DNA from: an uncultured Mediterraneibacter sp.
GTDB taxonomy: Bacteria > Bacillota > Clostridia > Lachnospirales > Lachnospiraceae
Direction: 5' to 3'
Length of the DNA: 64,000 nt
NCBI GenBank assembly: GCA_944383695.1
Contig: CALWQP010000007.1
Span: forward strand, 1-64,000
The number at the start of each line of letters is the position of its first letter. Position 1 is the stretch's first letter. The notes beneath the pieces were generated by a model, which had not been told where the DNA came from, made no database searches, and saw only the letters and a list, made by a program, of their open reading frames with translations. The position numbers and the translations under genes were made by a program. This document shows positions 11,474-37,106 of this stretch, piece after piece.

Positions 11474-12841
11474 ATGGTAGAGAAAAACAGTAAAAAGCTC
11501 AGCGCTTCCTTTGAAGAAAATATAAGATATATGAATGAAATCCTTCCGGTGAAAGAAAGTTTTGACATCATCCGGCGGGAAATGGAAATCGGAGGAAAGG
11601 CGTCCGTGTTCTACTACATTGACGGATTCATCAAGGATGAGGCAATGTTGAAGATCATGGATTCCTTTCTTTCTGTGTCTGAAAAGGATATGCCGGAGGA
11701 TGCGGAAGGTTTTATCCAGAAAAACGTGCCCTATGTTGAGGTTGACATACTGGAAGATTTTGACCAGGTCATAAGAAACGTCCTCTCAGGTCCGGCGGTG
11801 CTTTTTATTGACGGTTACAAAGAGTGCATTGCCATCGATTGCCGTACCTATCCTGCCCGGAGCGTGGACGAGCCGGACAAGGACAGGTCCCTGCGCGGTT
11901 CAAGGGACGGCTTTGTAGAGACGATCGTATTCAATACAGCGCTTATGCGACGGAGAATCCGTGACCCTCATCTTGTGATGGAGATGACAGAGGCGGGCCA
12001 GACGTCCCGCACGGATATCGCTCTGTGCTATATGCAGGACAGGGTGGACCCGGAGCTTTTAAAAAATCTGAAGAACCGGATCGAGAGCCTTCAGGTCGAC
12101 GATCTGAGGATGAATCAGCAAAGCCTGGCGGAAGCCCTGTTTAAAAGGAAATGGTTCAACCCCTTTCCGAAGTTTAAATTTACAGAACGCCCGGATACCG
12201 CGGCGGCATGTCTCCTCGAGGGGAAGGTCGTGATCTTGGTAGATAACTCGCCTTCGGCAATGATCCTGCCTACTTCCATTCTGGACATGATCGAGGAGGC
12301 GAATGATTATTACTTCCCCACGGTGACGGCGGTGTACCTGAAGGTGACAAGAGCGCTGATCACCATTGCCACAGTGTTTTTTACGCCGCTGTACCTGCTG
12401 TTTATGCAGAATGAGGAATGGCTGCCCGAGGCGTTTGCGTTTGTTGCCGTGCAGGATACAGTGAACATACCGCTCATCTTCCAGTTTCTTTTGCTGGAGT
12501 TGTCCATTGACGGTCTGAGACTTGCGGCAATGAATACCCCAACTATGCTGAGCACCCCTCTGAGTGTGATCGCAGGTATTGTTATGGGAGAGTTCTCCGT
12601 GCAGTCGGGCTGGTTCAACTCCGAGGTGATGCTCTACATGGCATTCGTGGCAGTGGCAAATTACACCCAGCCCAATTTTGAACTTGGCTATGCATTAAAA
12701 TTTATGCGGCTGATGCTGCTGATCCTTACGGCGGTCTTTAATCTTTACGGATTCATCATCGGATGTATCCTTGTGCTGTGCTTCCTGATCTTTAACAAGA
12801 CATTGTCAGGCCGCAATTATATGAATGTGAAACTGAACTGA
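11474..12841 (+). CDS. GerA-family spore germination protein (SpoVAF-like)
   Basis: 455 residues. A hydrophilic N-terminal half (FEENIRYMNEIL, VFYYIDGFIKDEAML, RTYPARSVDEPDKDRSLRGSRDGFVE) precedes a membrane half with five or so helices. That is the GerA architecture; the RGSRDGFVE and MNTPTMLSTPLSVIAG segments are diagnostic. No GerB or GerC partner and no SpoVA genes adjoin it, so a SpoVAF-like accessory channel is more likely than a complete receptor subunit. Acts in the spore inner membrane. Upstream, GCATA (11397), N17 and CAATCTA (11419) resemble a sigma-G promoter, tentatively. Confidence 0.88.
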   Translation: MVEKNSKKLSASFEENIRYMNEILPVKESFDIIRREMEIGGKASVFYYIDGFIKDEAMLKIMDSFLSVSEKDMPEDAEGFIQKNVPYVEVDILEDFDQVIRNVLSGPAVLFIDGYKECIAIDCRTYPARSVDEPDKDRSLRGSRDGFVETIVFNTALMRRRIRDPHLVMEMTEAGQTSRTDIALCYMQDRVDPELLKNLKNRIESLQVDDLRMNQQSLAEALFKRKWFNPFPKFKFTERPDTAAACLLEGKVVILVDNSPSAMILPTSILDMIEEANDYYFPTVTAVYLKVTRALITIATVFFTPLYLLFMQNEEWLPEAFAFVAVQDTVNIPLIFQFLLLELSIDGLRLAAMNTPTMLSTPLSVIAGIVMGEFSVQSGWFNSEVMLYMAFVAVANYTQPNFELGYALKFMRLMLLILTAVFNLYGFIIGCILVLCFLIFNKTLSGRNYMNVKLN

Positions 12842-12930: not shown

Positions 12931-12978
12931 TTGACAGGGGACAAATTATTCGGTATTATCGAATTAAGATTCGATAAT
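12931..12978 (+). promoter_or_regulatory. Promoter P1 with palindromic operator, catechol operon
   Basis: A consensus TTGACA (12931-12936), 17-nt spacer and TATTAT (12954-12959). A perfect inverted repeat, ATTATCGAAT (12955-12964) and ATTCGATAAT (12969-12978) with a 4-nt spacer, covers the -10 box and start site. This is the position expected for a repressor operator. IclR is the obvious candidate ligand-binding regulator because it is the first gene downstream. Confidence 0.75.
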
Positions 12979-12993
12979 GACGAACAGTTGGTA

Positions 12994-13022
12994 TTGTCAC
13001 TCAAAATTGAGTGTGATATATT
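12994..13022 (+). promoter_or_regulatory. Promoter P2 with second palindrome, catechol operon
   Basis: TTGTCA (12994-12999), 17-nt spacer and TATATT (13017-13022). A perfect palindrome, CACTCAA and TTGAGTG around AA (12998-13013), fills the spacer. Its sequence differs from the P1 palindrome, so two regulators, or two site types, may act here. Confidence 0.55.
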
Positions 13023-13048
13023 CAAACTATAATAAAGGAGAGATACAA

Positions 13049-13849
13049 ATGAACAAAGACCAGCCTGTTAAGACCGGCAACTCGCACATTAAATCAGTGG
13101 AACGGGCGATTTTGCTGATCGAGACGCTTGCACAGGAAGACACGGAGATGTCACTGTCACAGCTTTCCCTGAAACTCGGGTGGCCCAAAAGCACGATACA
13201 CGGACTGCTCGCTACACTTCGTGATTACCACTATGTGGACCAGTCCATGGAGAACAGTAATTACCGGCTGGGGACCCGGCTTTTTGAGCTGGGGAACCGG
13301 GTGGCACGCTCCTGGGTCATAAAAGATGCGGCACGTCCGGTCATGCTGAGACTTGTCCGAGAATTTGGGGAGACAGTCCAGCTGGGTACGGAGGACGACG
13401 GCGAGATACTCTATCTGGATAAACTTGTGGCAAACTCGGTGGTCAGCATCATGTCCGAGGTAGGCTTACGGCTCCCGATGCACTGCAGTGGTCTTGGAAA
13501 GGTGCTGCTGGCGCAGAAAAGCCCGGCACAGCTCAAGCGCATCATAGCCCGCAAAGGACTGCCGGCAATGACCAAACGCACGATCACAACACAGGCAAAG
13601 CTTGAGAAGGAGCTGGCACAGGTCAGGGAAAACGGTTATGCCATAGATGAGGGAGAAATCATGGACGGTCTGCGATGTGTGGCAGTTCCCATATGGGACG
13701 GAACCGGGAAGGTCCGTTACGCGCTCAGTATTTCCGGACAGGCCCGCAATATCTACGGTGACCGGCTTGAGCACATTATTGACGGACTCAAGCAGGCGGC
13801 AGGAGAAATTTCCTATGCCATGGGCAGCCGCAGAAATGAATATCAATGA
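13049..13849 (+). CDS. IclR-family transcriptional regulator of catechol operon
   Basis: 266 residues from the ATG at 13049 (AAAGGAGA upstream); the open frame extends 72 bases further 5' into the operator region without a start signal. Residues about 15-80 form the IclR winged helix (VERAILLIETLAQ, SLSQLSLKLGWPKSTIHGLLATL), followed by the effector domain with LRLPMHCSGLGKVLLA and MDGLRCVAVPIWD. IclR proteins often control aromatic catabolism (PobR, PcaU, CatR types) and respond to pathway substrates. Here it heads the catechol gene run in the same direction, so it probably regulates itself and the operon. The effector is unknown; catechol or a ring-cleavage product is a reasonable guess. 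Confidence 0.92.
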   Translation: MNKDQPVKTGNSHIKSVERAILLIETLAQEDTEMSLSQLSLKLGWPKSTIHGLLATLRDYHYVDQSMENSNYRLGTRLFELGNRVARSWVIKDAARPVMLRLVREFGETVQLGTEDDGEILYLDKLVANSVVSIMSEVGLRLPMHCSGLGKVLLAQKSPAQLKRIIARKGLPAMTKRTITTQAKLEKELAQVRENGYAIDEGEIMDGLRCVAVPIWDGTGKVRYALSISGQARNIYGDRLEHIIDGLKQAAGEISYAMGSRRNEYQ

Positions 13850-13919: not shown

Positions 13920-14747
13920 ATGGAACAGAAAAGACCTGAAATCGCAAACAGTATTCAGACAGGAGCATTCAAGACGAATTATCATGATCTTGGGAAAGGA
14001 TTTCCGGTGGTATTTTTACACGGCTCTGGTCCCGGAGTCACGGCATGGGCGAACTGGAACAAAGTGTTCCCTCTCATGCAGGATGACTTCCGCCTGATCG
14101 CGCCGGACATGGTAGGATTTGGCTATACAGAGCGGATTGAGGGGCAGGTCTACAACATGAACGTGTGGGTACAGCAGACCATCGATCTCTTTGATGCGCT
14201 GGGCATTGAGAAGGCAAATCTGGTCGGCAATTCCTTCGGAGGAGCGCTGGCGCTCTCCATGGCTGTCAAATACCCTGAGCGTGTCAACAAGCTTGTGTGC
14301 ATGGGAGCCATGGGCGTAAGCTTCCCCATCACTTATGGACTTGACCAGGTATGGGGTTACACTCCGTCACCTTCTAATATGGCGAAACTGCTGGAAATCT
14401 TTACATATGACCATTCCTTTGCTACCCCGGAGCTGGCAGAATCCCGTTACCAGGGAAGCATCCAGCCCGGTTTCCAGGAGAGCTTCTCCCAGATGTTCCC
14501 GGTTCCCCGGCAGAACGGCGTAGAGGATATGGCAGGCAACCAGCAGTATATCCGTGACATCCCTCATGAGACACTTATCATCCATGGCAGGGAGGATCGT
14601 GTGATCCCGCTGAGCAACTCGTATAAGCTTTTGGAGCTTATTCCCAATGCGGAACTGCATGTCTTCGGAAAGTGCGGACACTGGTCACAGATTGAGCACA
14701 CTCAGGACTTTGCAGATCAGCTCCTGTGGTTCTTTAAACGTTCCTGA
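13920..14747 (+). CDS. 2-hydroxymuconate-semialdehyde hydrolase (XylF/DmpD type)
   Basis: 275-residue alpha/beta hydrolase that cleaves the C-C bond of meta ring-fission products, giving 2-oxopent-4-enoate and formate (from catechol) or acetate (from 3-methylcatechol). The oxyanion region is LHGSGPGVTAWANW. The triad is Ser105 (VGNSFGGAL), Asp226 (HGREDRVIP) and His254 (GKCGHWSQIEH). The stretches SFPITYGLDQVWGYTPS and ESFSQMFPVPRQ are closely like those of Pseudomonas DmpD/XylF, so the assignment is well beyond generic hydrolase. Preceded by AAAAGGAGAGATGAATT. A small GCCC/GGGC stem in the 70-nt gap after iclR lacks a T tract, so read-through is expected. Confidence 0.92.
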   Translation: MEQKRPEIANSIQTGAFKTNYHDLGKGFPVVFLHGSGPGVTAWANWNKVFPLMQDDFRLIAPDMVGFGYTERIEGQVYNMNVWVQQTIDLFDALGIEKANLVGNSFGGALALSMAVKYPERVNKLVCMGAMGVSFPITYGLDQVWGYTPSPSNMAKLLEIFTYDHSFATPELAESRYQGSIQPGFQESFSQMFPVPRQNGVEDMAGNQQYIRDIPHETLIIHGREDRVIPLSNSYKLLELIPNAELHVFGKCGHWSQIEHTQDFADQLLWFFKRS

Positions 14748-14823: not shown

Positions 14824-15603
14824 ATGGAAAATACAAATATACAAAAATATGCGGATATGCTCCGGGAGGCGGAGGCGTCACGAAACGCCATCCCTCCCCT
14901 GACGGAGACGGACGAAAGCCTTGACATTGACGATGCTTATGCGATCCAGCTTGCCAATGTGGAGCACACGGTCCGTGCAGGACATATAGTTTCAGGCAAA
15001 AAGATCGGCCTGACCTCAGAAGGCATCCAGAAGCAGCTTGGGGTAAACGAACCGGATTACGGTCACCTTTTTGCGGCGATGGAATGTCCCGACGGCATGG
15101 TAGAGACGGATAAGCTCATGCAGCCTAAGATCGAGGGCGAGATTGCCTTTGTGTTAAAAGACGATCTGGCAGGAGGCAGGGTGACGGCAGAAGATGTGCG
15201 CCGTGCTACGGATTATGTGGTGGCAGCCTTTGAGATTGTTGACAGCAGGGTGGCTGACTGGAAGATCAAACTGGTAGACACAGTGGCTGACAATGCTTCC
15301 TCTGGCAGATATGTGTTGGGAGAGAAGAAGATGTCCCTTGATGAAGTGGACTTGCCCAACGTGCCTATGGTTCTGACAAAGAACGGTGAGAAGGCGGGAG
15401 AAGGCAGAGGATCCGCGGTGCTGGGAGACCCAGCGGAGGCTGTGGCATGGCTTGCCAACAGGCTGTGGGGGTACGGCGTGACCCTGAAAAAGGGCGAGGT
15501 CATTCTCTCCGGTGCGTTTTCAGCCGCCCCGGAGGCTGAAAAAGGCGATGAGTTCACCGCGGACTTTGGACCGATGGGGAAGGTAACGGCAAAATTCATA
15601 TAA
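14824..15603 (+). CDS. 2-oxopent-4-enoate hydratase (XylJ/DmpE/MhpD type)
   Basis: 259 residues. Hydrates 2-hydroxypenta-2,4-dienoate to 4-hydroxy-2-oxovalerate with a divalent metal. Family marks: KKIGLTSEGIQKQLGVNEPDYG, then KIEGEIAFVL with Glu104 and Glu106, and AAFEIVDSR with Glu137 (the metal-binding glutamates), followed by DNASSGRYVLG. The close relatives 4-oxalocrotonate decarboxylases share this fold. The hydratase call is favoured because the neighbours are the hydrolase, aldehyde dehydrogenase and aldolase, and no dehydrogenase/tautomerase branch is present. Start ATG 14824 has GAGG six bases upstream; ATG 14812 is also in frame. Confidence 0.88.
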   Translation: MENTNIQKYADMLREAEASRNAIPPLTETDESLDIDDAYAIQLANVEHTVRAGHIVSGKKIGLTSEGIQKQLGVNEPDYGHLFAAMECPDGMVETDKLMQPKIEGEIAFVLKDDLAGGRVTAEDVRRATDYVVAAFEIVDSRVADWKIKLVDTVADNASSGRYVLGEKKMSLDEVDLPNVPMVLTKNGEKAGEGRGSAVLGDPAEAVAWLANRLWGYGVTLKKGEVILSGAFSAAPEAEKGDEFTADFGPMGKVTAKFI

Positions 15604-15646
15604 AAAATATCATATGGAAATGTGATGGGATAGAGAGGTGGATAAA

Positions 15647-16531
15647 ATGGACAGGATAAAAGTCGCCGTGATCGGACCGGGTAATATCGGCAGCGATCTG
15701 ATGTACAAGATATTTCGCAGTAAGTATCTGGAGATGGCAATGATGGCAGGAATCGTAGAATCAGAGGGAATCCGCCGTGCCAAATCCAAAGGTGTAAAGA
15801 CAACGATAGAAGGTGTGGACGGCGTGGTGCGCGAGGATGATATCCGTATTGCCTTTGACGCCACCAGTGCATCGGCACATCTGAAATTCAACGGACCTAA
15901 GCTAAAGGAGAAGGGCATTGTTTCCATTGACTTAACGCCCGCAGCCATTGGTCCCTACTGTGTGCCCGTGGTCAATCTGGACCAGCTTCAGCAGGAGCCG
16001 GACATCAATATGGTGACCTGCGGAGGGCAGGCAACCATCCCTGTGGTGTATGCTGTGTCCCAAGTGGCAGGAGCTGCTTATGCTGAGATCGTGGCATGTA
16101 TTTCCAGCAAAAGCGCAGGTCCCGGAACACGCGCCAATATGGACGAGTTTACAGAGACTACCAGCAAGGCGCTTGAGGTCGTGGGCGGCGCGGACAAGGG
16201 GAAGGCGATCATCGTGCTCAATCCTGCGGAGCCTCCTCTTATGATGACCAATACGATCAGTGTCAAAGTAAAAGATACAAGCGTAGGATTTGACAAGATC
16301 CGCGAAGCAATAGAGAAAATGGTAGATCAAGTAAGGACTTACGTTCCGGGATATAAACTGCGCGTTCCTCCCACCATGGAAGGTGACAGGGTGACTGCCA
16401 TCGTGCAGGTGGAAGGACAGGCTGACTTCCTTCCGGCTTACAGCGGAAACCTTGACATCATCAATTCGGCGGCAGTGGCGGCAGCCGAAAAGATTGCGGA
16501 GCGCATGCTCAGAGAAGGGAGGAACGGATAA
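15647..16531 (+). CDS. Acetaldehyde dehydrogenase, acylating (DmpF/MhpF type)
   Basis: 294 residues from ATG 15647 (AGAGG upstream). Converts acetaldehyde, CoA and NAD+ to acetyl-CoA. The N-terminal Rossmann motif is [17 protein letters not shown] (residues 6-22) and the catalytic Cys125 is in [41 protein letters not shown] and [23 protein letters not shown] match the DmpF/MhpF family rather than the large AdhE-type enzymes. In known systems it forms a heterotetramer with the aldolase and receives acetaldehyde by channelling. Here the two genes overlap by one base (TAATG), consistent with a coupled complex. Confidence 0.95.
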
Positions 16532-17538
16532 TGGCAGAGCGTAAGATTACTTTTGTAGACACGACGATGCGGGACGGCAGCCATGCTGTGCGCCACAGCT
16601 TTACCGAGGAACAGGTGTCGCAGATTGCTCGAAGACTGGATAAATGCGGCGTACCGCTCATCGAACTTTCCCATGGCGATGGACTGGGCGGTTCCAGCTA
16701 TACCTACGGATTCTCCAAGACCAATGAGTTCACTTTGATGGAGGCGGCTGCCAAAGAGATCAAAAACGGCAGACTCACGGTTCTGCTCCTGCCGGGAATC
16801 GGTACTATTGCCGATCTTAAGCAGGCTAAGGCATGCGGAGCGAAAGCCGTGCGCGTGGCGACTCATGTGACAGAGGCTGATGTGAGCGCAGAACATATCT
16901 ATGCCGCAAAAGAGCTGGACATGATGGCGGTGGGATTTCTTATGATGGTACATACTGCGCCTGTGGAGCGCATCGTCGAAGAGGCCAGGAAGATGGAAAG
17001 CTATGGGGCGGATTACATCAATCTTGCTGATTCTGCCGGTTATCTCATGCCCGAGGATGTGAAGGCACGCATCACTGCTGTGCGGGAGGCTGTAAATATT
17101 CCGGTGGGATTTCATGCCCACAACAATATGGGACTGGCGATTGCCAACTCACTGATTGCCGTGCAGAGCGGGGCGGACTTTGTGGACGGAACTCTCCGCG
17201 GTCTCGGCGCAGGAGCGGGCAATGCTCAGATCGAGGTGCTGGCAGGAGTCATGAAGCGGAATGGATACGAGACAGGCGTGGATTTCTATGGGCTTATGGA
17301 CTTGGCTGCTGAAGTAGTGGAACCGATCATGCTCCGTCCCCAGACCATTGACAACGGCTCCCTCATGCTGGCATACACAGGGGTATATTCCAGCTTTCTG
17401 CTTCATGTGTATGACGCGGCAAAGAAATACTCGCTTGATCAAAGAGATATTCTTGTTGAACTGGGTCGCCGCAAGATGGTGGGCGGACAGGAGGACATGA
17501 TCATAGATGTGGCTTACCAGCTCACACAAAAGCTATAA
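16531..17538 (+). CDS. 4-hydroxy-2-oxovalerate aldolase (DmpG/MhpE type)
   Basis: 335-residue metal-dependent class II aldolase with a TIM barrel, cleaving 4-hydroxy-2-oxovalerate to pyruvate and acetaldehyde. TTMRDGSHAVRHSF gives the Arg14, Asp15 and His18 catalytic set; the metal-binding histidines are His195 and His197 in GFHAHNNMGLAIANSL. GLGAGAGNAQIEVL and the C-terminal communication domain (YGLMDLAAEVVEPIM to the end) are present. This length and the C-terminal domain separate it from HMG-CoA lyase and isopropylmalate synthase. Starts on the overlap with the dehydrogenase stop. Confidence 0.95.
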   Translation: MAERKITFVDTTMRDGSHAVRHSFTEEQVSQIARRLDKCGVPLIELSHGDGLGGSSYTYGFSKTNEFTLMEAAAKEIKNGRLTVLLLPGIGTIADLKQAKACGAKAVRVATHVTEADVSAEHIYAAKELDMMAVGFLMMVHTAPVERIVEEARKMESYGADYINLADSAGYLMPEDVKARITAVREAVNIPVGFHAHNNMGLAIANSLIAVQSGADFVDGTLRGLGAGAGNAQIEVLAGVMKRNGYETGVDFYGLMDLAAEVVEPIMLRPQTIDNGSLMLAYTGVYSSFLLHVYDAAKKYSLDQRDILVELGRRKMVGGQEDMIIDVAYQLTQKL

Positions 17539-17559: not shown

Positions 17560-17841
17560 ATGAACGATTACAGGATCACAGACGGAGCAACAGGCGAAGC
17601 TTTTCTCTGTCATTCGGATGAAAATCTGCTGGCAGCAATGCGCCGTTCGGGGAAGGGCCCTATAAAGACAGGCTGTTTCGGCGGCGGATGCGGAGTGTGC
17701 AAAGTACGCATATTGGACGGTAGATACCAGGCGTTCAAAAAGATGAGCAAGGCGCATGTCTCACCGGAGGAAGAAAAGCAGAACATCGTGCTTGCCTGCT
17801 GCGTCAGACCCCTTAGTAACATTACGCTGATCAAAGCGTAA
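17560..17841 (+). CDS. XylT-like [2Fe-2S] ferredoxin
   Basis: 93-residue plant-type ferredoxin. The cluster ligands fit Cys39, Cys44 and Cys47 (KTGCFGGGCGVCKVRI) and a Cys at 80 or 81 (VLACCVRP). GRYQAFKKMSKAHVSPEEEKQ is characteristic of the XylT/DmpQ/NahT group, which sits beside catechol 2,3-dioxygenase in Pseudomonas meta operons and re-reduces the dioxygenase iron when it is oxidised to Fe(III). It has 38 bases to the dioxygenase start, so the partnership seems preserved. The source of electrons is not encoded nearby. Confidence 0.9.
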   Translation: MNDYRITDGATGEAFLCHSDENLLAAMRRSGKGPIKTGCFGGGCGVCKVRILDGRYQAFKKMSKAHVSPEEEKQNIVLACCVRPLSNITLIKA

Positions 17842-17879
17842 TAGATATAATCAAATTTATAACAAAGGAGGAAACAAAA

Positions 17880-18806
17880 ATGGCACTCAACAAAACTCTA
17901 CGCCCCGGACTGATTCAAATGCGGGTATTGGATCTGGACCAGACCCTGGATTTCTACACTAACATCCTTGGTCTTAATGAGGTAGGACGCACCGAGGATG
18001 GGCGCGTTATGCTCAAAGGATATGATGAATTTGATCATCATTCCGTGACCCTTCGTCTGGCTGACGAGGCAGGCCTTGACTATGTTGCCTTTAAAGTGGA
18101 TAGTCCCGGGACTCTGGAGAGCCTCAAGGACGCCACAGAAGCATTTGGATATCCGGTAGATGAAGTACCAGCCAACACGAATCAGCCTGGTTTTGGCAAG
18201 CGCTACGGGTTTACCATCTGCACCGGACACCGCATTGAACTCTATGCGGATGTGGAGAAAGCTGCGCAGGTTCCCATGACACACAACCCTCACCCATGGG
18301 TGGAAGCTCCCCGGGGAATGCGCGCACAGCGTTTTGACCACTGCCTGCTCTACGGACCGAACATTGCGGAAGCTGAGAGGTATTTCACGGAAGTCCTGGG
18401 CATGTTTGCGCCGGAGGTATGTAATACACCGGAAGGTAACCGGTTCGCGACCTGGCTTACCAGCGGAAATAAGGCTCATGATATTGCTTTTGTGGAGTAT
18501 GAGAAGCCGGGCAAGATCCATCATCTGGCATTCCTTCTTCAGGACTGGAATGATATCGGCAATGCAGCGGACTTTATCGGACGTTACAGCTTAAAACGTG
18601 ATGTAGGCCCCACCCGCCATGCCATCACACGAGGACAGACGATCTACTTCTGGGAGCCCTCCGGTAACCGTATCGAGACCTATTGCGGCGGATATACGGC
18701 ATATCCGGACAACCCGGTCCGTGTATGGGATGTATCTGAGGTTGGCAAAGGACTGTTCTACTATGAGGGAGAACTGATTCCATCCTTCCTTCAGGTAGTG
18801 ACCTAG
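17880..18806 (+). CDS. Catechol 2,3-dioxygenase (XylE/DmpB type)
   Basis: 308-residue extradiol dioxygenase: catechol + O2 to 2-hydroxymuconate semialdehyde. Two vicinal-oxygen-chelate modules. The Fe(II) ligands match P. putida XylE with a one-residue offset: His154 (RFDHCLLYG), His215 (KIHHLAFLL) and Glu266 (SGNRIETYCGG). The active-site His200 (KAHDIAFV), His247 (PTRHAITRG) and Tyr256 (TIYFWEP) are also present, so the protein looks fully functional. It ends the operon before a strong terminator and has an AAAGGAGG ribosome site. The reaction needs molecular oxygen, which is odd for a presumed obligate anaerobe. Substrate (catechol or alkylcatechol) cannot be read from the sequence. Confidence 0.95.
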   Translation: MALNKTLRPGLIQMRVLDLDQTLDFYTNILGLNEVGRTEDGRVMLKGYDEFDHHSVTLRLADEAGLDYVAFKVDSPGTLESLKDATEAFGYPVDEVPANTNQPGFGKRYGFTICTGHRIELYADVEKAAQVPMTHNPHPWVEAPRGMRAQRFDHCLLYGPNIAEAERYFTEVLGMFAPEVCNTPEGNRFATWLTSGNKAHDIAFVEYEKPGKIHHLAFLLQDWNDIGNAADFIGRYSLKRDVGPTRHAITRGQTIYFWEPSGNRIETYCGGYTAYPDNPVRVWDVSEVGKGLFYYEGELIPSFLQVVT

Positions 18807-19613: not shown

Positions 19614-20477
19614 ATGAGAGATTATGTGATCACAGTGAACAGTACTGTGGATCTGCCTAAGGAGTGGCTTAAGGAGAGACATGTCCCCGTGGTTCCGCTC
19701 AGATATACAATAGACGGAAGGACCTATACGGATATGGAGGGACTGTCTGCAAAAGAATTTTTCGCAAAGCTCCGGGAAGGAAAGATGTCTGTGACGTCGC
19801 AGGTGAACCCGGAAGAAGCGGTAGAGGCGCTGGAGCCTTATGTGAAGGAAGGAAAGGATATCCTGCATCTTGGATTCTCTTCGGGCTTGAGCGGTACGCT
19901 CAACAGTATGCGGATCGCAGGGCAGATGCTTGAGGAGAAATACCCGGAGGCAAAAGTCATCGTGATTGATACCCTCTGTGCATGCCTGGGGGAAGGGCTT
20001 CTGCTCCACAAAGCGCTCCAGGTCAAAGAGCAGGGCAGGACCATCGAAGAAACAGCGCAGTGGGTGGAGGAGAATAAACTCCATATCTGCCATAATGTGA
20101 CTGTGGACGACTTAAATCACCTCCACAGAGGCGGAAGAGTGTCAAAGACAACTGCTGTGATCGGAACGCTTGTTCAGATCAAACCTATCATACATATGGA
20201 CAATGCCGGCAAGCTTCAGGTGATCGGAAAAGAGAGGGGCAGGAAAAAGTCACTGAATAAGATTGTTGATATGGCTGTGGAGCAGTCAAAAGGCTGGGAT
20301 AATGACATTATCATGATCACTCATGGCGACTGCCTTGAGGACGCGGAGTATGTGGCAAAGCTGGTACGCGAGAAGATGGGCGTTGACAATATCCTGATCA
20401 ACAATATCGGAACGGTGATCGGAAGCCATACCGGACCGGGCGTGGTGGCAGTGTTCTGTATGGGAGAAAAGAGATAG
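19614..20477 (+). CDS. DegV-family fatty-acid-binding protein
   Basis: 287 residues, the usual DegV length. In Firmicutes such proteins (FakB) carry a fatty acid for phosphorylation by FakA. Marks: ITVNSTVDLPKEWL at the N-terminus, TSQVNPEEAVEALEPYV, LGFSSGLSGTLNSM (fatty-acid carboxylate site) and IIHMDNAGKLQVIGKERGRKKS. The C-terminal GTVIGSHTGPGVVAVFC segment is intact. GGAGG lies eight bases before the ATG. It is on its own transcript; no fakA homologue adjoins it. Confidence 0.93.
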   Translation: MRDYVITVNSTVDLPKEWLKERHVPVVPLRYTIDGRTYTDMEGLSAKEFFAKLREGKMSVTSQVNPEEAVEALEPYVKEGKDILHLGFSSGLSGTLNSMRIAGQMLEEKYPEAKVIVIDTLCACLGEGLLLHKALQVKEQGRTIEETAQWVEENKLHICHNVTVDDLNHLHRGGRVSKTTAVIGTLVQIKPIIHMDNAGKLQVIGKERGRKKSLNKIVDMAVEQSKGWDNDIIMITHGDCLEDAEYVAKLVREKMGVDNILINNIGTVIGSHTGPGVVAVFCMGEKR

Positions 20478-21394: not shown

Positions 21395-23452
21395 ATGACA
21401 GAAAACAACAGGTGTTTTGACGGAACTCTTTTTCTTGAAGATATAGAGAGCAAACTGAGACAGAGACTTGACCAGCTTAATAAGGAGCTGGACGAAGGAC
21501 AGAAAGAAATCGAAAACATGCACGAGTATTACTGGGAAAACTATACAGAGATGGACCAGTATGGCTATGAGGACTATGATAATCAGCAGGCACTCCTTTA
21601 TCAAGTGAATTCGAACCAGGAAAAGGCAAAATTAAAGCGCCGGTTTGAGAAAATGCTGGATTCGCCGTTTTTTGGCAGAGTGGATTTCCGGTTTGAGGGG
21701 GAGGAAGAAGCAGAGCCTTTCTATATCGGCATCGGGAATTTCGCGGAGCGGGCAGGAATGACGCCCCTGGTCTATGACTGGCGGGCCCCTGTGAGCGGGT
21801 TATTTTATGATTATGATAAGGGACCGGCATCCTATGAAGCGCCATCCGGGACGATCAGCGGAGAGATTACTGCAAAATGGCAGTATAAGATCCGGGGCGG
21901 CAAGATGGTCTATGGGTTTGAAAGCGATGTAAAGATTGATGATGAAATCTTAAAGCAGGAGCTTGGCAACAATGGGGACGCGCAGTTAAAGAGCATTGTG
22001 CGGACGATCCAGAAGGAGCAGAACGAGATCATCCGTAACACCAAAGACCGGATACTGGTCATACAGGGAGCGGCGGGAAGCGGAAAGACATCAATTGCGC
22101 TTCACAGGATCGCCTATCTTTTATACCATGACAGGCTTAATCTGCGTTCATCCAATATCCTTATCCTGTCGCCGAACAGTGTTTTTGCGGATTACATTTC
22201 CCACATTCTTCCAGAACTTGGCGAGGAAAATATCCGTGAGATGAGTTTTGACCTGTTTGCATATAAAGAATTGAAGGACACTGCGGCTGACTGCGAGGAC
22301 CGGTATGATCATTTAGAGCGGATGATGAAGTTCCCGGACTCTAAGGCTGATGAGAGGTTTCATTGGAAGCAGTCCGCAGAGTTCGTGGGTGAGGTGGAAG
22401 GATTTCTGGCAGTAGAAGAGGACAGGCTGATGGATTTCCGGGATATTGAATTTCGTGGAATGAGGCTGTCAGAGGAGGAACTCATCCATCTCTTTTATGA
22501 TAAATTTTATGACACGCCGATACTGAAACGGATGGATGCGGTGATGGAATATTTCGTGGATTCTTATGAGACTCTGAGAGGGAGAGACATTGAAGAAGAG
22601 GACAGGGAACTCCTTCAGAAAAAATTCGACAGAATGTACGTGACGAAAGACATTTATAGTCTTTATAACCGGCTGATGGAGTTCTGCGGACAGGAGGAAC
22701 TGTCCGACACTCCTTTTGACAGAAGAAAAATTCTTTATGAAGACGTATTTCCGATGCTGTATCTGAAATACAGGCTGACCGGGGAGAGCGCACACAAAAA
22801 TATCAAGCATCTTGTGATCGATGAGATGCAGGATTATTCTTACCTTCAATATGTGATCCTCCAAAGACTGTTTGACTGCCGGATGACTATCCTGGGAGAC
22901 CGGGCGCAGACGCTTGATAAAGAACAGCAGGATGTGCTGAGATTCCTCCCTAAAATATTCGGAAAGGGCATTCGCACGGTGGTCATGAATAAGAGCTATC
23001 GAAACACTTGGGAGATCGCAACCTATGCTGGGAAGATCAGTGGAATCACAGATATAGAGCTTCTGGAGCGCCATGGAAAGGAAGTAGAGCAAAAGACATT
23101 TGCTTCAGAAGACGAGATGCTCTCCGCGATCAGGGAAAACCTGAATGTAGGAGCAGAAGGCTTTGAGACAGCCGCGGTCATTGCAATGACAGAGGAAGAA
23201 GCATTTGATATTTACAGACTGCTGGAGAACAGGGGAATCGATGTCTCTTATGTAGACAGGGACAGTTCAGCATTTCGCAGAGGACTGACAGTGACAACAT
23301 TTTACCTTGCAAAAGGCCTGGAATTTGACCAGGTATTTGCAGTGCGGGGAAAACCGGACAATCCGCTGGCAGGGCAGGCGGAATACATCTGTGCGACAAG
23401 AGCCCTGCATGAGCTGTATGTGTATCAGATTGAGAAGCCTTCCGGCTGCTGA
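21395..23452 (+). CDS. helD: HelD-type RNA polymerase recycling ATPase
   Basis: 685 residues from ATG 21395; the frame is open 138 bases upstream but only this start has a GGAGAGAAGAG site. UvrD/Rep-like superfamily 1 ATPase. A long N-terminal coiled arm (LEDIESKLRQRLDQLNKELDEGQKEIENM) is typical of HelD, which inserts into the RNA polymerase channel. Walker A is IQGAAGSGKTSIALHRIAYLLY, Walker B VIDEMQDYSYLQ, then LGDRAQTLD and NKSYRNTWEIA. The C-terminal helicase part has TVTTFYLAKGLEFDQVF. HelD frees stalled RNA polymerase using ATP and can affect rifamycin tolerance. A DNA-repair helicase is less likely because of the arm. Confidence 0.88.
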   Translation: MTENNRCFDGTLFLEDIESKLRQRLDQLNKELDEGQKEIENMHEYYWENYTEMDQYGYEDYDNQQALLYQVNSNQEKAKLKRRFEKMLDSPFFGRVDFRFEGEEEAEPFYIGIGNFAERAGMTPLVYDWRAPVSGLFYDYDKGPASYEAPSGTISGEITAKWQYKIRGGKMVYGFESDVKIDDEILKQELGNNGDAQLKSIVRTIQKEQNEIIRNTKDRILVIQGAAGSGKTSIALHRIAYLLYHDRLNLRSSNILILSPNSVFADYISHILPELGEENIREMSFDLFAYKELKDTAADCEDRYDHLERMMKFPDSKADERFHWKQSAEFVGEVEGFLAVEEDRLMDFRDIEFRGMRLSEEELIHLFYDKFYDTPILKRMDAVMEYFVDSYETLRGRDIEEEDRELLQKKFDRMYVTKDIYSLYNRLMEFCGQEELSDTPFDRRKILYEDVFPMLYLKYRLTGESAHKNIKHLVIDEMQDYSYLQYVILQRLFDCRMTILGDRAQTLDKEQQDVLRFLPKIFGKGIRTVVMNKSYRNTWEIATYAGKISGITDIELLERHGKEVEQKTFASEDEMLSAIRENLNVGAEGFETAAVIAMTEEEAFDIYRLLENRGIDVSYVDRDSSAFRRGLTVTTFYLAKGLEFDQVFAVRGKPDNPLAGQAEYICATRALHELYVYQIEKPSGC

Positions 23453-23546
23453 TACTGATTTACAGTGGTTTTTGAGTACGGTTTTTTCGTATAAATTGCC
23501 TCTGGCTGGAAATCTTATAATAATAAAAAGCAACCAGGAGGCATCT

Positions 23547-24995
23547 ATGGAATCCATATGGAGTAAAACCTGTGATATGCGGAAGCGTCAGGCTCTGGAC
23601 AGGGATATTGAGACAGACGTGGCTGTGATCGGCGGCGGGATGGCAGGGATACTGACTTCGTATCAGCTGGAGCGTTCCGGTGTGCGGACAGTCATTCTGG
23701 AAGCTGAGCGGATCGGTGGTGGGCAGACTAAGAACACCACAGCAAAGATTACATCCCAGCATGGAATGTTCTGCCGCGACTTCATTGAAAAGAAGGGGAA
23801 AGACGCTGCACGGCAGTATGTCCGGGCAAATCAGGCGGCAGTGGAGGAATATAAGAGGATCATCCGGGAGGAGGAGATTGACTGCGATCTTGGAGAAACG
23901 GATTCTTATGTATATTCACAAGACGGAGAAAAATTAAAATCTGAAGCCGGGGCAGCACTGGAACTTGGTATTGATGCCGCCTATGAACGTCAGGTCGAGA
24001 TACCGGCTGTGTGCGCCGGAGCAGTGAAATTCGCCCGACAGGCCCAGTTTCACCCGCTGAAATTTATTGACGCGCTGTCTGAACAATTAACAGTTTACGA
24101 AGACACACCTGTAAAGGAAGTAGAAGAGCATACGATTAGGACGCCAGGTGGGAGCGTGAGGGCAGGGAAGATTGTTTTTGCCACTCATTTTCCATTTATT
24201 AATTTTCCTGGCATGTATTTCGCGCGGATGCATCAGGAACGTTCCTATGTTCTGGCGCTGGAGAATACGGGGACGATCAATGGAATGTACATCGGTGATG
24301 GGGTGGATGCACTTTCGTTCCGGCAGTTTGACCGTTATCTCCTCCTTGGCGGGGAGGGACACCGTACAGGCGAGAACAATGAAGGAGGAAAATATGAGGG
24401 TGGAAGCTATGAGAGACTGCGTGCGGCAGCGAGGGAACTCTATCCTCAGAGCCGGGAAACTGCCTGCTGGTCCGCCCAGGACTGTGTCACCGCTGACAAG
24501 ATCCCCTTCATCGGCAGATATGCATCGGATCGTCCGGACTGGTTTGTCGCCACAGGTTTTCAGAAGTGGGGCATGAGCTCATCCATGGTATCGGCCATGC
24601 TCCTTCGAGATATGATCTGCGGAACAGAGAACTCCTGTGCGGAAGTATTCGCACCGTCAAGGTTTTCTGCAGAAGAGATCCCGCAGATCATGAAAGACAG
24701 CGGAAAGGCGGTAAAAGGGCTGACAAAGCGATTCTTTCACATCCCTGAGGAGACAGTCAGTCAATTGAAACCGGGACAAGGCGCGGTCGTCGAGACGGAG
24801 AGCGGCAAGGCAGGGGTCTACAAGACAGAGGATCAGAAAATTTATAAGGTGGATATCGTGTGCCCACATCTGGGATGTGAGCTGACATGGAATCCGGATG
24901 AAAAGTCATGGGACTGCCCATGCCACGGCTCCCGCTTTGACTATAAAGGGAACTTGCTGGAGGGGCCTGCACAGGAGGGGATTCATTATGAGTGA
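23547..24995 (+). CDS. FAD-dependent oxidoreductase with C-terminal Rieske domain
   Basis: 482 residues from ATG 23547 (CAGGAGG seven bases before). N-terminal DAO-type FAD fold: DVAVIGGGMAGILTSYQLERSG (about residues 25-46), EAERIGGGQTKNTTAKITSQHG, and FVATGFQKWGMSSSM near the end of the fold. The C-terminal about 80 residues are a Rieske [2Fe-2S] domain with Cys439, His441, Cys457 and His460, plus the extra Cys444 and Cys459 that form the stabilising disulfide. Substrate unknown; Bacillus YhfW has the same layout. Its stop codon overlaps the next gene's start by 8 bases, so the two act together at least in expression. Confidence 0.9.
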   Translation: MESIWSKTCDMRKRQALDRDIETDVAVIGGGMAGILTSYQLERSGVRTVILEAERIGGGQTKNTTAKITSQHGMFCRDFIEKKGKDAARQYVRANQAAVEEYKRIIREEEIDCDLGETDSYVYSQDGEKLKSEAGAALELGIDAAYERQVEIPAVCAGAVKFARQAQFHPLKFIDALSEQLTVYEDTPVKEVEEHTIRTPGGSVRAGKIVFATHFPFINFPGMYFARMHQERSYVLALENTGTINGMYIGDGVDALSFRQFDRYLLLGGEGHRTGENNEGGKYEGGSYERLRAAARELYPQSRETACWSAQDCVTADKIPFIGRYASDRPDWFVATGFQKWGMSSSMVSAMLLRDMICGTENSCAEVFAPSRFSAEEIPQIMKDSGKAVKGLTKRFFHIPEETVSQLKPGQGAVVETESGKAGVYKTEDQKIYKVDIVCPHLGCELTWNPDEKSWDCPCHGSRFDYKGNLLEGPAQEGIHYE

Positions 24996-25917
24996 TCACT
25001 TTTATGGATGGTATTTCCGGTGTCAGGGAGAAGAGGGGAGTATCGCAGTGATCCCGGCGGTGCACATCTCTGCAAAGAAACGGTCCTGTTCCATTCAGGT
25101 CATTACAGAGTCAGGAAGCTGGAATAGAGTGTTTCCGGTCCAGCAGTTCCGGATCAACAGGGACAAGGGTATCATGCAGATCGGGGAGAATCTGTTCTCA
25201 AGGAAGGGAATCCGCCTGAATCTGGAAACTGAAGAGTTAAAGATCAGCGGCATCCTGCGGTTTGGCCAGTTTGCCGAACCAAAGTATGACATCATGGGAC
25301 CATTTCGGTATATTCCGGGAATGGAGTGCAGACATGCTGTGTACAGCATGAGGCATTCTGTGACCGGAGAACTGAGAGTGAATGGAGAGCTGCTTCGTTT
25401 CCAGGATGGAAAAGGCTATATGGAAGGAGACAGCGGAAGCTCCTTTCCGGAACAGTATGCCTGGACACAGCACTTTCTCGGTGACGGCTCTCTTATGCTT
25501 GCGGCGGCTACGGTACCGCTGGGACAGATGTGTTTCACAGGAACTGTCGGCATCCTGTATCAGAAGGGGAGGGAATACCGGTTTGCAACTTATCTCGGCG
25601 CGTCCGTACAGAAAATAGGAAATGGAGAATTGTTCATCCGGCAGGGGAAATACTCTCTGAGAGTCCGTTTTCCAAGGCAGACAGGAAGCGTGCTGTGCGC
25701 GCCGCAAAATGGGAAAATGACGCGGAAAATCCGGGAAAGTGTATCCTGCCGGGCAGAGTGTACATTGCTGTGCGGGGACAGGATCGTGTTCCGGACAGTC
25801 ACGGACAAAGCAGCGTTTGAATACGAGACAAAAGAGGAAGAAAATGAAGATATCAGTAATCGCAGCAGGGAAGATAAAAGAGAGATATTTAAAAGACGCT
25901 ATCACAGAATACAGTAA
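24988..25917 (+). CDS. Tocopherol-cyclase-like family protein
   Basis: 309 residues from ATG 24988 (GGAGGGG upstream). All-beta protein resembling the tocopherol cyclase-like family (Pfam Tocopherol_cycl): DHFYGWYFRCQGEEGSIAVIP, ILRFGQFAEPKYDIMGPF, MECRHAVYSMRHSVTG and GYMEGDSGSSFPEQYAWTQ are the clearest stretches. In plants the family closes the chromanol ring of vitamin E; bacterial members, including this one, have no known substrate. The last 24 codons overlap the start of rlmH by 74 bases, in another frame; that tail (NRSREDKREIFKRRYHRIQ) is probably not part of the fold. Coupled to the FAD-Rieske gene. Confidence 0.75.
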   Translation: MSDHFYGWYFRCQGEEGSIAVIPAVHISAKKRSCSIQVITESGSWNRVFPVQQFRINRDKGIMQIGENLFSRKGIRLNLETEELKISGILRFGQFAEPKYDIMGPFRYIPGMECRHAVYSMRHSVTGELRVNGELLRFQDGKGYMEGDSGSSFPEQYAWTQHFLGDGSLMLAAATVPLGQMCFTGTVGILYQKGREYRFATYLGASVQKIGNGELFIRQGKYSLRVRFPRQTGSVLCAPQNGKMTRKIRESVSCRAECTLLCGDRIVFRTVTDKAAFEYETKEEENEDISNRSREDKREIFKRRYHRIQ

Positions 25918-26323
25918 AAGGCTGAGCCGTTATTGCAGGCTGGAAATTATTGAGGTGGCGGATGAGAAGACTCCGGAGCAGGCAAGTGAAACGGTTGAGG
26001 AGGCTATCCGGTCAAAAGAAGGGGAGCGTCTCTTGAAATATATCCGGGACGATATGTATGTGATCACCCTGGAAATCGGTGGGAAGATGCTCACGTCCGA
26101 GGAGTTTGCAGAGAAGATCGAGACGCTGGGAGTGCAGGGTAAAAGCAGTATTGCATTTGTGATCGGCGGTTCTATCGGTCTTGGGAAAGAGGTGCTGAGA
26201 CGGTCAGATTTTGCGCTTAGTTTTTCGAAGATGACATTTCCGCATCAGTTGATGCGGGTGGTGCTGCTGGAGCAGGTGTACCGAGGGTATCGGATTATCA
26301 ATGGAGAGCCATATCACAAGTAA
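25844..26323 (+). CDS. rlmH: 23S rRNA pseudouridine-1915 N3-methyltransferase
   Basis: 159 residues, exactly the family length, from ATG 25844 (AGAGGAAG upstream). SPOUT methyltransferase using SAM to methylate pseudouridine 1915 in helix 69 of 23S rRNA. KISVIAAGKIKERYLKDAITEYSKRL at the start, FVIGGSIGLGKEVLRRSDFALSFSKMTFPHQLMRVVLLEQVYRGYRI with the trefoil-knot SAM loop, and the C-terminal EPYHK are all conserved. Its first 74 bases lie within the end of the preceding gene, an unusually long overlap. Confidence 0.96.
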   Translation: MKISVIAAGKIKERYLKDAITEYSKRLSRYCRLEIIEVADEKTPEQASETVEEAIRSKEGERLLKYIRDDMYVITLEIGGKMLTSEEFAEKIETLGVQGKSSIAFVIGGSIGLGKEVLRRSDFALSFSKMTFPHQLMRVVLLEQVYRGYRIINGEPYHK

Positions 26324-26333
26324 GGGCGGTATT

Positions 26334-26355
26334 GGAGGAACTGTTTAGTTCCTCC
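26334..26355 (+). terminator. Hairpin after rlmH
   Basis: GGAGGAAC (26334-26341) and GTTCCTCC (26348-26355) with a 6-nt loop. The downstream T run is short (TTAAT), so termination may be weak. Confidence 0.55.
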
Positions 26356-26389
26356 TTAATCCATACCATAATGCTATCAGAACATGATT

Positions 26390-26899
26390 TTATTCTTTCT
26401 TCCGTGTTAAGAAAATTCCAATGATTGCAATAATAAAGATAAGCGGTGCTGCTCTGACAAACAACCATTCAAATGAGTGAAATGCCACTCCAAGAATAGC
26501 GGTTTCAGGGTCACTATAATCCCACCCCCAATAAGGACTCTTTAATATTACTAAGGCTGCAAAAACCATTACTGTGATTGCACATAATGAAATAAACAGC
26601 CAACGGATAAATTTTCTTCTCGTATTTTTCCTTTGTGCCAGTTGCCAATTTATCACTTCCAATTTTACGGAAATGGCTTTTATATTATCAACCTCCGTTT
26701 CAGTAACAGTTTCTCCAAGTAAAGTGCCCACAGGTGTTTCAAGCACTTTCGATATGGAGATTAACATATCAGAATCGGGAACCGACAGTCCTTGCTCCCA
26801 TTTAGAAACCGTCTGCCGCACGACGTTCAGTTTGACCGCAAGCTCCTGTTGCGAAAGTCCTTTTGATTTTCTGATTGCTTTAATATTTTCGTTGAGCAT
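26390..26899 (-). CDS. XRE-family regulator with membrane tail
   Basis: 169 residues. Residues 4-60 are a Cro/C1-type HTH (NIKAIRKSKGLSQQELAVKLNVVRQTVSKWEQG). A short linker leads to two transmembrane helices (about 98-120 and 143-163). Such membrane-linked XRE regulators are common in Firmicutes next to small regulated membrane genes; none is seen here. The minus-strand ATG at 26899 has AAAGGAGA upstream. It sits in an AT-rich segment. Confidence 0.85.
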   Translation of the reverse strand: MLNENIKAIRKSKGLSQQELAVKLNVVRQTVSKWEQGLSVPDSDMLISISKVLETPVGTLLGETVTETEVDNIKAISVKLEVINWQLAQRKNTRRKFIRWLFISLCAITVMVFAALVILKSPYWGWDYSDPETAILGVAFHSFEWLFVRAAPLIFIIAIIGIFLTRKKE

Positions 26900-27130
26900 T
26901 AGGGATAGTCTCCTTTCTTTCCTTCGTTACCATTATTGTAGTCTGAATTGTCCGTTGCCACAAGCAACGCGTCTTAACATCTTTAGAAAAACTGTTGATA
27001 ACACTGATAATTTCCAGCCGGGCTATGATATTTTATTCATTCTTTTTCTGATGGCAATGGAAGAATGGCACAATTATGGTATAATGAAGAAAAGTCAGGT
27101 CAACGGATTGGAATTTAGCGGGGAGAAAAA

Positions 27131-27691
27131 ATGGAGAAGAAGTTATCTGAAATGAGTTTAGAAGAATTATGGAAGCTATTTCCTATCTACTTGACAGAGT
27201 ATCAGCCATATTGGAAAGAATGGTACACTGATGAAGAAAAATTTTTGAAAAACAGAGTTCCTAAAATAGAGAGAATTAGTCATATAGGAAGTACAGCGAT
27301 TAGTTCTATTTGTGCAAAACCTATTATTGATATTCTTGTGGAAATTTCAAAAGATTATAAGTTATCGGACTATAAAGAATTGATTGTGAAAAGTGGCTAT
27401 GTTTGCATGTCCGAAACATCTGATAGAATTTCTTTTAACAAGGGATATACAGAAAAAGGATTTGCCAAGAGGGTGTTTCACCTACACCTAAGATATATTG
27501 GAGATAATGATGAATTATATTTTAGGGATTATTTCATTGAGCATACCAATATTGCTATGAAGTACGAGAAGATGAAATTGAAATTATGGAAAAAATATGA
27601 ATTTAATAGAGAGGGTTATACAAATTCTAAAACAGATTTCATTCAAAAGTACACCGAAAAAGCAAAGGTGAAATATGGAGATAAATATTAA
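27131..27691 (+). CDS. GrpB family protein (nucleotidyltransferase-like)
   Basis: 186 residues from ATG 27131, preceded by GGGGAG and by TATAAT at about 27078. GrpB/CoaE-linked UPF0157 fold: YQPYWKEWYTDEEKFL, RISHIGSTAISSICAKPIIDILVEI (the characteristic HIGSTA(V/I)xG(L/I)xAKPIID stretch, varied here) and FHLHLRYIGDNDELYFRDYF. The nucleotidyltransferase-like fold suggests nucleotide transfer, but no member's reaction is known to me. Markedly AT-rich with many AAA and ATA codons, unlike the flanking core genes, so acquisition by transfer is likely. Its end overlaps the next gene by 17 bases. Confidence 0.85.
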   Translation: MEKKLSEMSLEELWKLFPIYLTEYQPYWKEWYTDEEKFLKNRVPKIERISHIGSTAISSICAKPIIDILVEISKDYKLSDYKELIVKSGYVCMSETSDRISFNKGYTEKGFAKRVFHLHLRYIGDNDELYFRDYFIEHTNIAMKYEKMKLKLWKKYEFNREGYTNSKTDFIQKYTEKAKVKYGDKY

Positions 27692-28016
27692 TAAATCTGA
27701 ATTTAAAAGTTTAAAATCAAAGATAGTTTATTTGATTTATATTATGAAGATACCTGCAATATTAAAAAGTGATTTGATATCATTTATGAAAGCTAATTCA
27801 AATTATGAAGATAAAGACTGTGTATCTTTGACGCAAACAAAAATGATGATATTAGTTGGAAGTAAGGAGAGACTGATTATGAAAAAATCAGCAAAGAATA
27901 TTTCTAATTTAATTTCCAAAAGTAAATCAGAGATATTAAAGGGATATTGTCACGGAGATATTAGTATAAATCATGCTGATGAATATGCAGAAATAATAAA
28001 AAGATTAGTTTGTTAA
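27675..28016 (+). CDS. Hypothetical protein in AT-rich segment
   Basis: 113 residues, Lys/Ile/Ser-rich, starting MEININKSEFKSLKSK, with a reasonable AAAGGTG site inside the end of the GrpB gene. No recognisable domain. Possible helical segments at residues 17-40 (IVYLIYIMKIPAILKSDLISFM) and the C-terminus; a moderately hydrophobic stretch is not long enough for a confident membrane span. Probably cotranscribed with the GrpB gene and, by composition, acquired with it. Confidence 0.5.
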   Translation: MEININKSEFKSLKSKIVYLIYIMKIPAILKSDLISFMKANSNYEDKDCVSLTQTKMMILVGSKERLIMKKSAKNISNLISKSKSEILKGYCHGDISINHADEYAEIIKRLVC

Positions 28017-28112
28017 ATCCTCAGTTTCCGATCGACAGCAACTGCGGGTTGCTTGCTAAAGTTGAAGTGTAAGGCCATAATGACAGTATACTATTTATCA
28101 GGAGGAACAAGA

Positions 28113-28556
28113 ATGGAAATTCAGGATATACTGAAACAGTTGCGTGAAAATAACAATCTTACACAAGAACAAATGGCAGCACGATTAATGGTTACGAGAC
28201 AGGCGGTTAGCCGGTGGGAAAATGGTGAGACGCAGCCGAATACAGAAACATTAAAATTGTTGTCGAGGGAATTTGATGTGTCGATCAATACACTCCTGGG
28301 TTCTCCACGACAGCTTATTTGCCAATGTTGCGGAATGCCATTAAACGAAGACAGTATGATCAGCCGTGAGAAGGATGGCAGTTATAACGAGGACTATTGC
28401 AAATGGTGTTATGCGGATGGTGAATTTACATATGAATCAAAAGAATCTCTGCTTGATTTCCTTGTGGATCACATGCCTAATCCTGAAAATATAAAGGATG
28501 GAGATCGGCGCAGCCAGTTTGATGCATATCTGTCTCAGTTGAAACATTGGAAATGA
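28113..28556 (+). CDS. XRE regulator with zinc-ribbon domain
   Basis: 147 residues from ATG 28113, which has CAGGAGGAACAAG upstream. Residues 3-60 form a Cro/C1 HTH (LRENNNLTQEQMAARLMVTRQAVSRWENG). The C-terminal part from residue 70 (ICQCCGMPLNED, CKWCYADGEFTYES) is a putative zinc ribbon with paired cysteines. Proteins joining these two domains are frequent in Clostridia and usually regulate a nearby stress or transport gene; the target is not evident here. Confidence 0.85.
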   Translation: MEIQDILKQLRENNNLTQEQMAARLMVTRQAVSRWENGETQPNTETLKLLSREFDVSINTLLGSPRQLICQCCGMPLNEDSMISREKDGSYNEDYCKWCYADGEFTYESKESLLDFLVDHMPNPENIKDGDRRSQFDAYLSQLKHWK

Positions 28557-28679
28557 CGCCATCCATACAACGCTTGAAGATGCAACTGTCAGTTGACATA
28601 TTGAAAAGTACCGATTGGTAGAAAATAACTACAAAAAAATTTAAATCAGACTATAAATTTATTCATTGGAGGATTTAAT

Positions 28680-29146
28680 ATAATTTTTGCAGACAAACTT
28701 ATTCAGCTCCGTAAAAAGGCTGGCTGGTCACAGGAAGAACTGGCAGAACAAATGAACGTGTCAAGACAATCTGTTTCCAAATGGGAAGGGGATGAAACGA
28801 TCCCGGATATCCGTCAAGCAAAGAAAATGGCTGTGTTGTATCATTTGTCTTTAGATGAACTGATTGATTTTGACATAAACATGACAGAAATTCAAGAAAT
28901 GATCGAGAAGAGCAGTGAAGAAACAAATGAAAAAATCAACTGGACAAATGCCTGGGGGAAATATATCCTGTTCTGCTTAAATATCAAGGCAAAGTAAATA
29001 TACTTAATTACGCTCACAGATTAAGCAAAATGTTAGATGAAATAGAGCAGGAATATCAGTTCAATGAACAAGATGCAATGTTGGTACTTAAAGACATTTT
29101 ATATCGTGTCTGGGAGAAACGGAAAGCGCAGAGAGGTAAATCCTGA
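28680..29146 (+). pseudogene. Broken XRE-family regulator
   Basis: An HTH protein (FADKLIQLRKKAGWSQEELAEQMNV) follows GGAGG, but the position where ATG is expected reads ATA (28680). The frame then breaks at about 28960: the original frame ends at 28997, while the matching continuation (YPVLLKYQGKVNILNYAH, then the tail WEKRKAQRG) is in another frame and runs to 29146. Either lesion alone could be tolerated, but both point to a dead gene. The next ATG (28752) would start inside the HTH. Confidence 0.75.
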
Positions 29147-29344
29147 TGGCTGCTCCGGGATCGGAACTGACCGGGCTGAATGCGGGGGATATTCCAGGAG
29201 GTACGACTAAATTGAATTGGCATAATGAAAACAATTTCGGTATACATAGTTAATGTGTTTTTATTGACAGCAGATGTAATAATAATGCTGAATGAAGATG
29301 TTATGGGGGATAGTGTTCGAAAGAAGCAGAATGGAGTCAAGGGT

Positions 29345-29620: not shown

Positions 29621-29672
29621 AAACAAGCTGTGTCATCACACATGAGAAATGAAAATAAGAGAAAATAAAAAG

Positions 29673-37095: not shown

Positions 37096-37106
37096 TGAGG
37101 TATGAT

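Follow-up and report, generated by a model that had tools for sequence, protein, structure and literature searches.

A XylT-type ferredoxin paired with catechol 2,3-dioxygenase in a meta-cleavage cassette of gut anaerobes

The 64,000-nucleotide stretch of DNA analysed here (the window) encodes a small plant-type ferredoxin immediately ahead of a catechol 2,3-dioxygenase (C23O), the two genes closing a cassette carried by a gut Lachnospiraceae bacterium. We consider it probable that the ferredoxin re-reduces its C23O neighbour, within a hydrolytic meta-cleavage cassette of gut anaerobes that would depend on O2 and appears to have spread horizontally.

The cassette and its host

Contig C7, which contains the window, belongs to an assembly of 2.84 Mb (completeness 99.7%), and the nearest relatives of its C23O come from Candidatus Mediterraneibacter species (98–99% identity); the host is a Mediterraneibacter-like Lachnospiraceae. 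Between a germination gene and a degV gene, the cassette runs in the order IclR regulator, hydrolase, hydratase, acetaldehyde dehydrogenase, aldolase, ferredoxin and C23O:

11474..12841, + strand: GerA spore-germination protein, left neighbour and left edge of the insertion site (PF03323, 9e-140)
12977..13849, + strand: IclR-family regulator (Pfam IclR_C, 5.5e-48, plus HTH_IclR; start codon uncertain)
13920..14747, + strand: alpha/beta hydrolase, XylF/DmpD-like (Abhydrolase_1, 9e-34; 56% to the pWW0 hydrolase)
14824..15603, + strand: putative 2-oxopent-4-enoate hydratase, XylJ/DmpE-like (TIGR03220, 287.9 bits, below the 408.8 cut-off)
15638..16531, + strand: acylating acetaldehyde dehydrogenase (TIGR03215, 428.5 bits, above the 282.25 cut-off)
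16531..17538, + strand: 4-hydroxy-2-oxovalerate aldolase (TIGR03217, 493.2 bits, above the 286 cut-off; DmpG_comm domain)
17560..17841, + strand: XylT-type [2Fe-2S] ferredoxin, 93 aa (Fer2, 7.1e-16; 38% to XylT)
17880..18806, + strand: catechol 2,3-dioxygenase, XylE type, 308 aa (TIGR03211, 357.8 bits, cut-off 320.2)
19614..20477, + strand: DegV protein, right neighbour and right edge of the insertion site (PF02645, 8e-78)

The hydrolytic branch of meta-cleavage (hydrolase, hydratase, aldolase and acylating aldehyde dehydrogenase) is present in full and linked to the C23O, and the IclR regulator is the first cassette gene in 18 loci of identical order. The top NCBIfam matches of the hydrolase are HsaD (191.8 bits) and BphD (174.5 bits), each below its own cut-off; it is predicted to be a 2-hydroxymuconic semialdehyde hydrolase. 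The hydratase is 48% identical to a pWW0 stretch, with a start at 14824 taken from the orthologue in the sister locus L038 (same MENTNIQK start), the longest open frame beginning at 14647. Because both enzymes score under their equivalog cut-offs, their exact substrates are predictions.

A contaminating or misassembled aerobic fragment was ruled out: other Mediterraneibacter assemblies carry the same cassette flanked by the same genes, and contamination of the host assembly stands at 0.08%. Elsewhere in the window, at 23307–25917, an FAD-dependent oxidoreductase carrying a Rieske domain at its C-terminus precedes a tocopherol cyclase family match, a combination unusual for Lachnospiraceae. Two further regions, 26001–30000 (containing an HTH regulator) and 36001–38000, have a GC content of 0.36–0.39 against ~0.48 and are possibly mobile.

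Searches of the host assembly found no cytochrome bd oxidase subunit I, no UbiD decarboxylase and no ring-hydroxylating dioxygenase alpha subunit; rubrerythrins are present. Seven PF01494 matches were considered as hydroxylases and dismissed (best 27 bits; six of the seven cover at most 50 profile positions). Since bd oxidase, UbiD and the dioxygenase alpha subunit were not found, O2 at the enzyme may be incidental or come from the gut wall. No catechol source was located among UbiD, ring-hydroxylating dioxygenase alpha and PF01494 candidates, so catechol would be supplied from outside or via an unrecognised enzyme.

Identity of the ferredoxin and the dioxygenase

The first-pass annotation had placed a XylT-type ferredoxin beside a dioxygenase at 17560–18806, an interval that covers both genes. 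Both open frames are indeed there, the ferredoxin ending 38 bp upstream of the C23O, and the two sequence marks on which that assignment leaned hold up. Cysteines fall at positions 17, 39, 44, 47, 80 and 81 of the ferredoxin; C39-x4-C44-x2-C47...C80 forms the cluster motif, with all four residues kept in 45/45 aligned rows, and the KMSKAHVS segment aligns with RMSRGHVP of XylT.

In pairwise comparison the ferredoxin is nearer to XylT of pWW0 (38% over 87 aa, E 1e-9) than to the Fer2 domain of pWW0 XylZ (31%, E 6e-8), the margin being modest. A family HMM, built from the relatives, gives 2.7e-26 for XylT and 5.9e-10 for XylZ. All four plasmid matches to the ferredoxin are proteobacterial, and of the two viewed, one (H4) adjoins a C23O and the other (H1) sits in a meta-pathway cluster. 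In structural comparisons, Foldseek included, an AlphaFold2 model (45 sequences, mean pLDDT 95) resembles both plant-type ferredoxins and the Fer2 domains of reductases (Z 13–15, RMSD 1.6–2.2 Å), a fold that cannot separate XylT from other Fer2 proteins. No second small stand-alone Fer2 protein was found in the assembly, whose four remaining Fer2 matches sit in open frames of 585, 904, 518 and 163 aa.

With XylT (Pseudomonas putida TOL plasmid pWW0; the NahT/DmpQ/PheQ type) the window protein shares the plant-type Fer2 domain with its C-x4-C-x2-C...C pattern and GGGCG core, the MS(K/R)xHV segment, a gene directly upstream of C23O and a net positive charge. It is shorter (93 aa versus 112), its third and fourth cysteines are spaced by 31 residues rather than 30, and, unlike the XylT setting, its host is without a detected ring-hydroxylating dioxygenase alpha subunit. 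A further difference is C81, right after the fourth cluster cysteine, which occurs in 42 of the 45 aligned rows and is absent from XylT. A second extra cysteine, beside the first ligand, appears in 23/45 rows and is not found in the window ferredoxin. The net charge of the latter is +5 (K+R−D−E); among relatives the charge is positive in 47 of 59, zero in 10 and negative in 2, so the trait is not universal. Net positive charge is named as a trait of the C23O-reactivating ferredoxin class in the available part of PMC2590616.

The dioxygenase is ~41% identical to XylE, and its H154, H200, H215, H247, Y256 and E266 match XylE H153, H199, H214, H246, Y255 and E265, which we take to be the metal-binding or catalytic residues. 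Across 69 C23O rows these six positions are departed from only in L038 (Y256C). PDB relatives by sequence are the C23Os 3hpv and 1mpy. A generic glyoxalase-fold identity was ruled out, the TIGR03211 score lying above its cut-off; in a family scan of 299 genomes, 81 match the C23O at E ≤ 0.001 and just two score above the cut-off. The gene appears to encode a full-length catechol 2,3-dioxygenase, with catechol as its predicted substrate.

Pairing and loss among relatives

Scanning genome contigs with the window C23O as query yielded 75 loci, seeded from close relatives of the window and hence not a sample of all C23Os. By record names they include Lachnospiraceae, Oscillospiraceae, Erysipelotrichaceae, Peptococcaceae, Fusibacter, Synergistaceae, Treponema and other Spirochaetaceae, one Actinomycetes MAG, one Anaerolineaceae and some Gammaproteobacteria. 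Some carry goat, sheep, buffalo or chicken-like isolate codes, and many others are, presumably, termite-gut or rumen MAGs, going by their codes.

Sixty-nine C23O copies can be judged, their starts being intact and preceded by 450 bases or more (eight truncated copies were set aside). The ferredoxin lies directly upstream on the same strand in 58 of them, at a median gap of ~32 bp, being split over two frames in one (L071). Together with the kinship to XylT, this favours C23O as the partner, as initially annotated. The pair is unbroken in three Synergistaceae loci and in Treponema L084, despite a changed order in which lower-pathway genes follow the C23O. Ferredoxin and C23O distances correlate strongly (r = 0.84 for 57 pairs, L071 left out; r = 0.72 for the 49 pairs of the anaerobe clade), with 0/2,000 permutations as high. 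The pairing is not due to chance. Gene clusters common to at least four loci comprise the genes of the cassette, open frames antisense to these, and unannotated neighbours that are scattered or specific to a lineage; no dedicated reductase was recognised among them as a recurrent neighbour of the cassette.

Fusibacter paucivorans (L063:7649–10924) has IclR, hydrolase, ferredoxin and C23O only, the hydratase, aldehyde dehydrogenase and aldolase being absent from 20.9 kb. In a Bacillota sample, C23O matches at E ≤ 1e-50 occur in 3 of 398 genomes, the window's own included. The other two are 40–42% identical, and in one of them (L166) none of the open frames in its 3.9 kb encodes a ferredoxin.

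The ferredoxin is missing upstream of 11 of the 69 copies. Three of these, from Lacrimispora xylanisolvens, L. defluvii and a Hungatella MAG (L043, L044 and L109), retain the rest of the cassette and an intact-looking C23O, with an aldolase–C23O gap of ~70–80 bases, and a profile search of the three genomes found such a ferredoxin in none. As these hosts keep the cassette without it, the ferredoxin is dispensable. At eight positions their C23Os differ from residues conserved to 85% or more across 50 ferredoxin-linked rows; none of the eight is catalytic. The remaining absences are of other kinds. Three are extra C23O copies in genomes with the ferredoxin elsewhere (L068, L086 and L108). Two more occur in Treponema loci as the second of two copies, the other being ferredoxin-linked. 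The genome of L089 has a weak ferredoxin match only; in L093 the match (5e-11) falls within a frame of 238 aa, and in L095 a strong one lies on a different contig. Two of the extra copies (L068:8769–9701 and L086:10001–10924) are orphan C23Os outside any cassette, on a branch of their own together with L088. In the C23O tree the ferredoxin-less rows nest in the ferredoxin-bearing set, which makes losses the simpler reading; six changes are needed, a count to be taken with caution given long branches.

Acquisition, proposed function and alternatives

Six pairwise comparisons of the window and three Mediterraneibacter assemblies give dN/dS of 0.046–0.186 for the ferredoxin, 0.016–0.043 for C23O and 0.019–0.041 for the aldolase. 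By these ratios the ferredoxin is under purifying selection, in keeping with its first-pass description as retained, and evolves faster than C23O. The C23O is damaged in two of the three sister assemblies: catalytic Tyr256 reads Cys in L038 (10001–10924), and in L039 (10001–10924) codon 223 is an in-frame TGA. Each lesion is known from a single MAG and is a possible assembly error; L036 and L037, being the same contigs, bring no further evidence.

C23O is carried by 4 of 58 genus genomes. Insertion-site loci were obtained from 30 of the 54 genus genomes matching DegV, 26 of them cassette-less, and GerA directly adjoins DegV in 23 of those 26 and not in three. GC content is 0.52 in the cassette against 0.48 on both flanks. 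On the simplest reading, the cassette was probably gained as a block between GerA and DegV, though repeated loss may be the alternative.

The active-site iron of C23O can be oxidised during turnover with poor substrates as well as by air. In the mechanism that we propose, iron oxidised to Fe(III) would receive one electron from the ferredoxin, returning C23O to its active Fe(II) form. Catechol and O2 would then yield 2-hydroxymuconic semialdehyde, which would be split to formate and 2-oxopent-4-enoate; the latter would pass through 4-hydroxy-2-oxovalerate to pyruvate and acetaldehyde, and on to acetyl-CoA. The O2 consumed would be the traces present along the gut lining or met on exposure to air. 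Such a role has precedents: the available parts of the sources cite C23O reactivation by such ferredoxins (PMC2590616), describe how the C23O iron is reduced to its ferrous form (PMC8696081), tie XylT-type reactivation to oxidation of the active-site iron (PMC2590616, PMC8696081) and count C23O-reactivating ferredoxins as one strategy against catechol accumulation (PMC5336314).

Kinship to XylT, conserved adjacency, co-divergence, purifying selection and positive charge argue for repair of C23O. Counting against it are the loss in Lacrimispora and Hungatella, the eight other copies without a nearby ferredoxin, the faster evolution of the ferredoxin, the lack of a recurrent reductase, the sister C23O lesions and a charge that is not universal. 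From the retention of the ferredoxin, the first-pass annotation had gone on to argue that the dioxygenase is really exposed to O2 and oxidised in this host. This is reasonable and partly supported, in that the gene is under purifying selection. It does not amount to independent evidence: O2 is a substrate of C23O, so a selected C23O already implies O2 and the ferredoxin adds little. The argument is weakened further by the dispensability seen in Lacrimispora and Hungatella, the likely block acquisition and the sister lesions.

Because the cassette was apparently acquired as a block, the ferredoxin might in principle have arrived with it as a passenger and have lost its use in Mediterraneibacter, whose C23O would be decaying. 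The GerA–DegV junction in cassette-less relatives, the small number of genus genomes with the cassette, its raised GC, the L038 and L039 lesions and the Lacrimispora loci without ferredoxin are what such a history would leave. Against this, both genes have low dN/dS, the four cluster cysteines are intact in every aligned row and the lesions sit in single MAGs that may be misassembled, which makes a passenger improbable. That the ferredoxin works for another partner, such as a Fer2-dependent oxidoreductase elsewhere, with its place beside C23O a relic of operon history, we regard as very unlikely. No reductase lies in the cassette or recurs beside it, and C23O reactivation is here a predicted function, but the adjacency survives rearrangements, the two proteins co-diverge and the closest kin is XylT.

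A distinct possibility, which we entertain tentatively and which is compatible with repair, is that the cassette serves mainly to detoxify O2 or catechol, the ferredoxin keeping C23O cycling as an O2 scavenger. The enzymes found and missed in the host (rubrerythrins; no bd oxidase, ring-hydroxylating dioxygenase alpha or UbiD), the reduced Fusibacter locus and the orphan C23Os of some genomes fit this idea, yet in most loci the pathway is complete down to pyruvate and acetyl-CoA, more than a purely detoxifying function would call for. It is also conceivable, if doubtful, that gut anaerobes have a repair-ferredoxin clade of their own adapted to intermittent O2, in which the extra cysteine next to the fourth cluster ligand, often joined by another next to the first, would permit ligand swapping or redox sensing, and the Lacrimispora loss would be offset by a low-potential ferredoxin pool or a changed C23O. 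Re-reduction of the neighbouring C23O remains our preferred reading.

XylT-type ferredoxins and meta-cleavage cassettes are both known kinds; the present host is unexpected. A 2014 paper reportedly described C23O and meta-cleavage genes in the gut anaerobe Treponema primitia. Treponema MAG loci of our scan bear the same cassette, from which the window differs by its Lachnospiraceae host. The phe operon of Geobacillus stearothermophilus (PMC2590616) is likewise a Firmicute meta-pathway with a reactivation-type ferredoxin. There, in the available part of the source, other genes including phenol hydroxylase lie between fdx and C23O and no hydrolase was found, whereas the window cassette has a hydrolase and no hydroxylase. 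A literature search of titles and abstract openings returned no report of the cassette in gut Clostridia. New here are the distribution of one cassette across gut Clostridia and other groups, its insertion into Mediterraneibacter, the clade-wide extra cysteine beside the fourth ligand and the loss of the ferredoxin in Lacrimispora. A near-universal ferredoxin, alongside cultured Lacrimispora that do without it, offers a natural test of the need for reactivation in anaerobes. If the cassette works, Lachnospiraceae lacking bd oxidase would spend O2 on opening aromatic rings, a reaction usually credited to aerobes.
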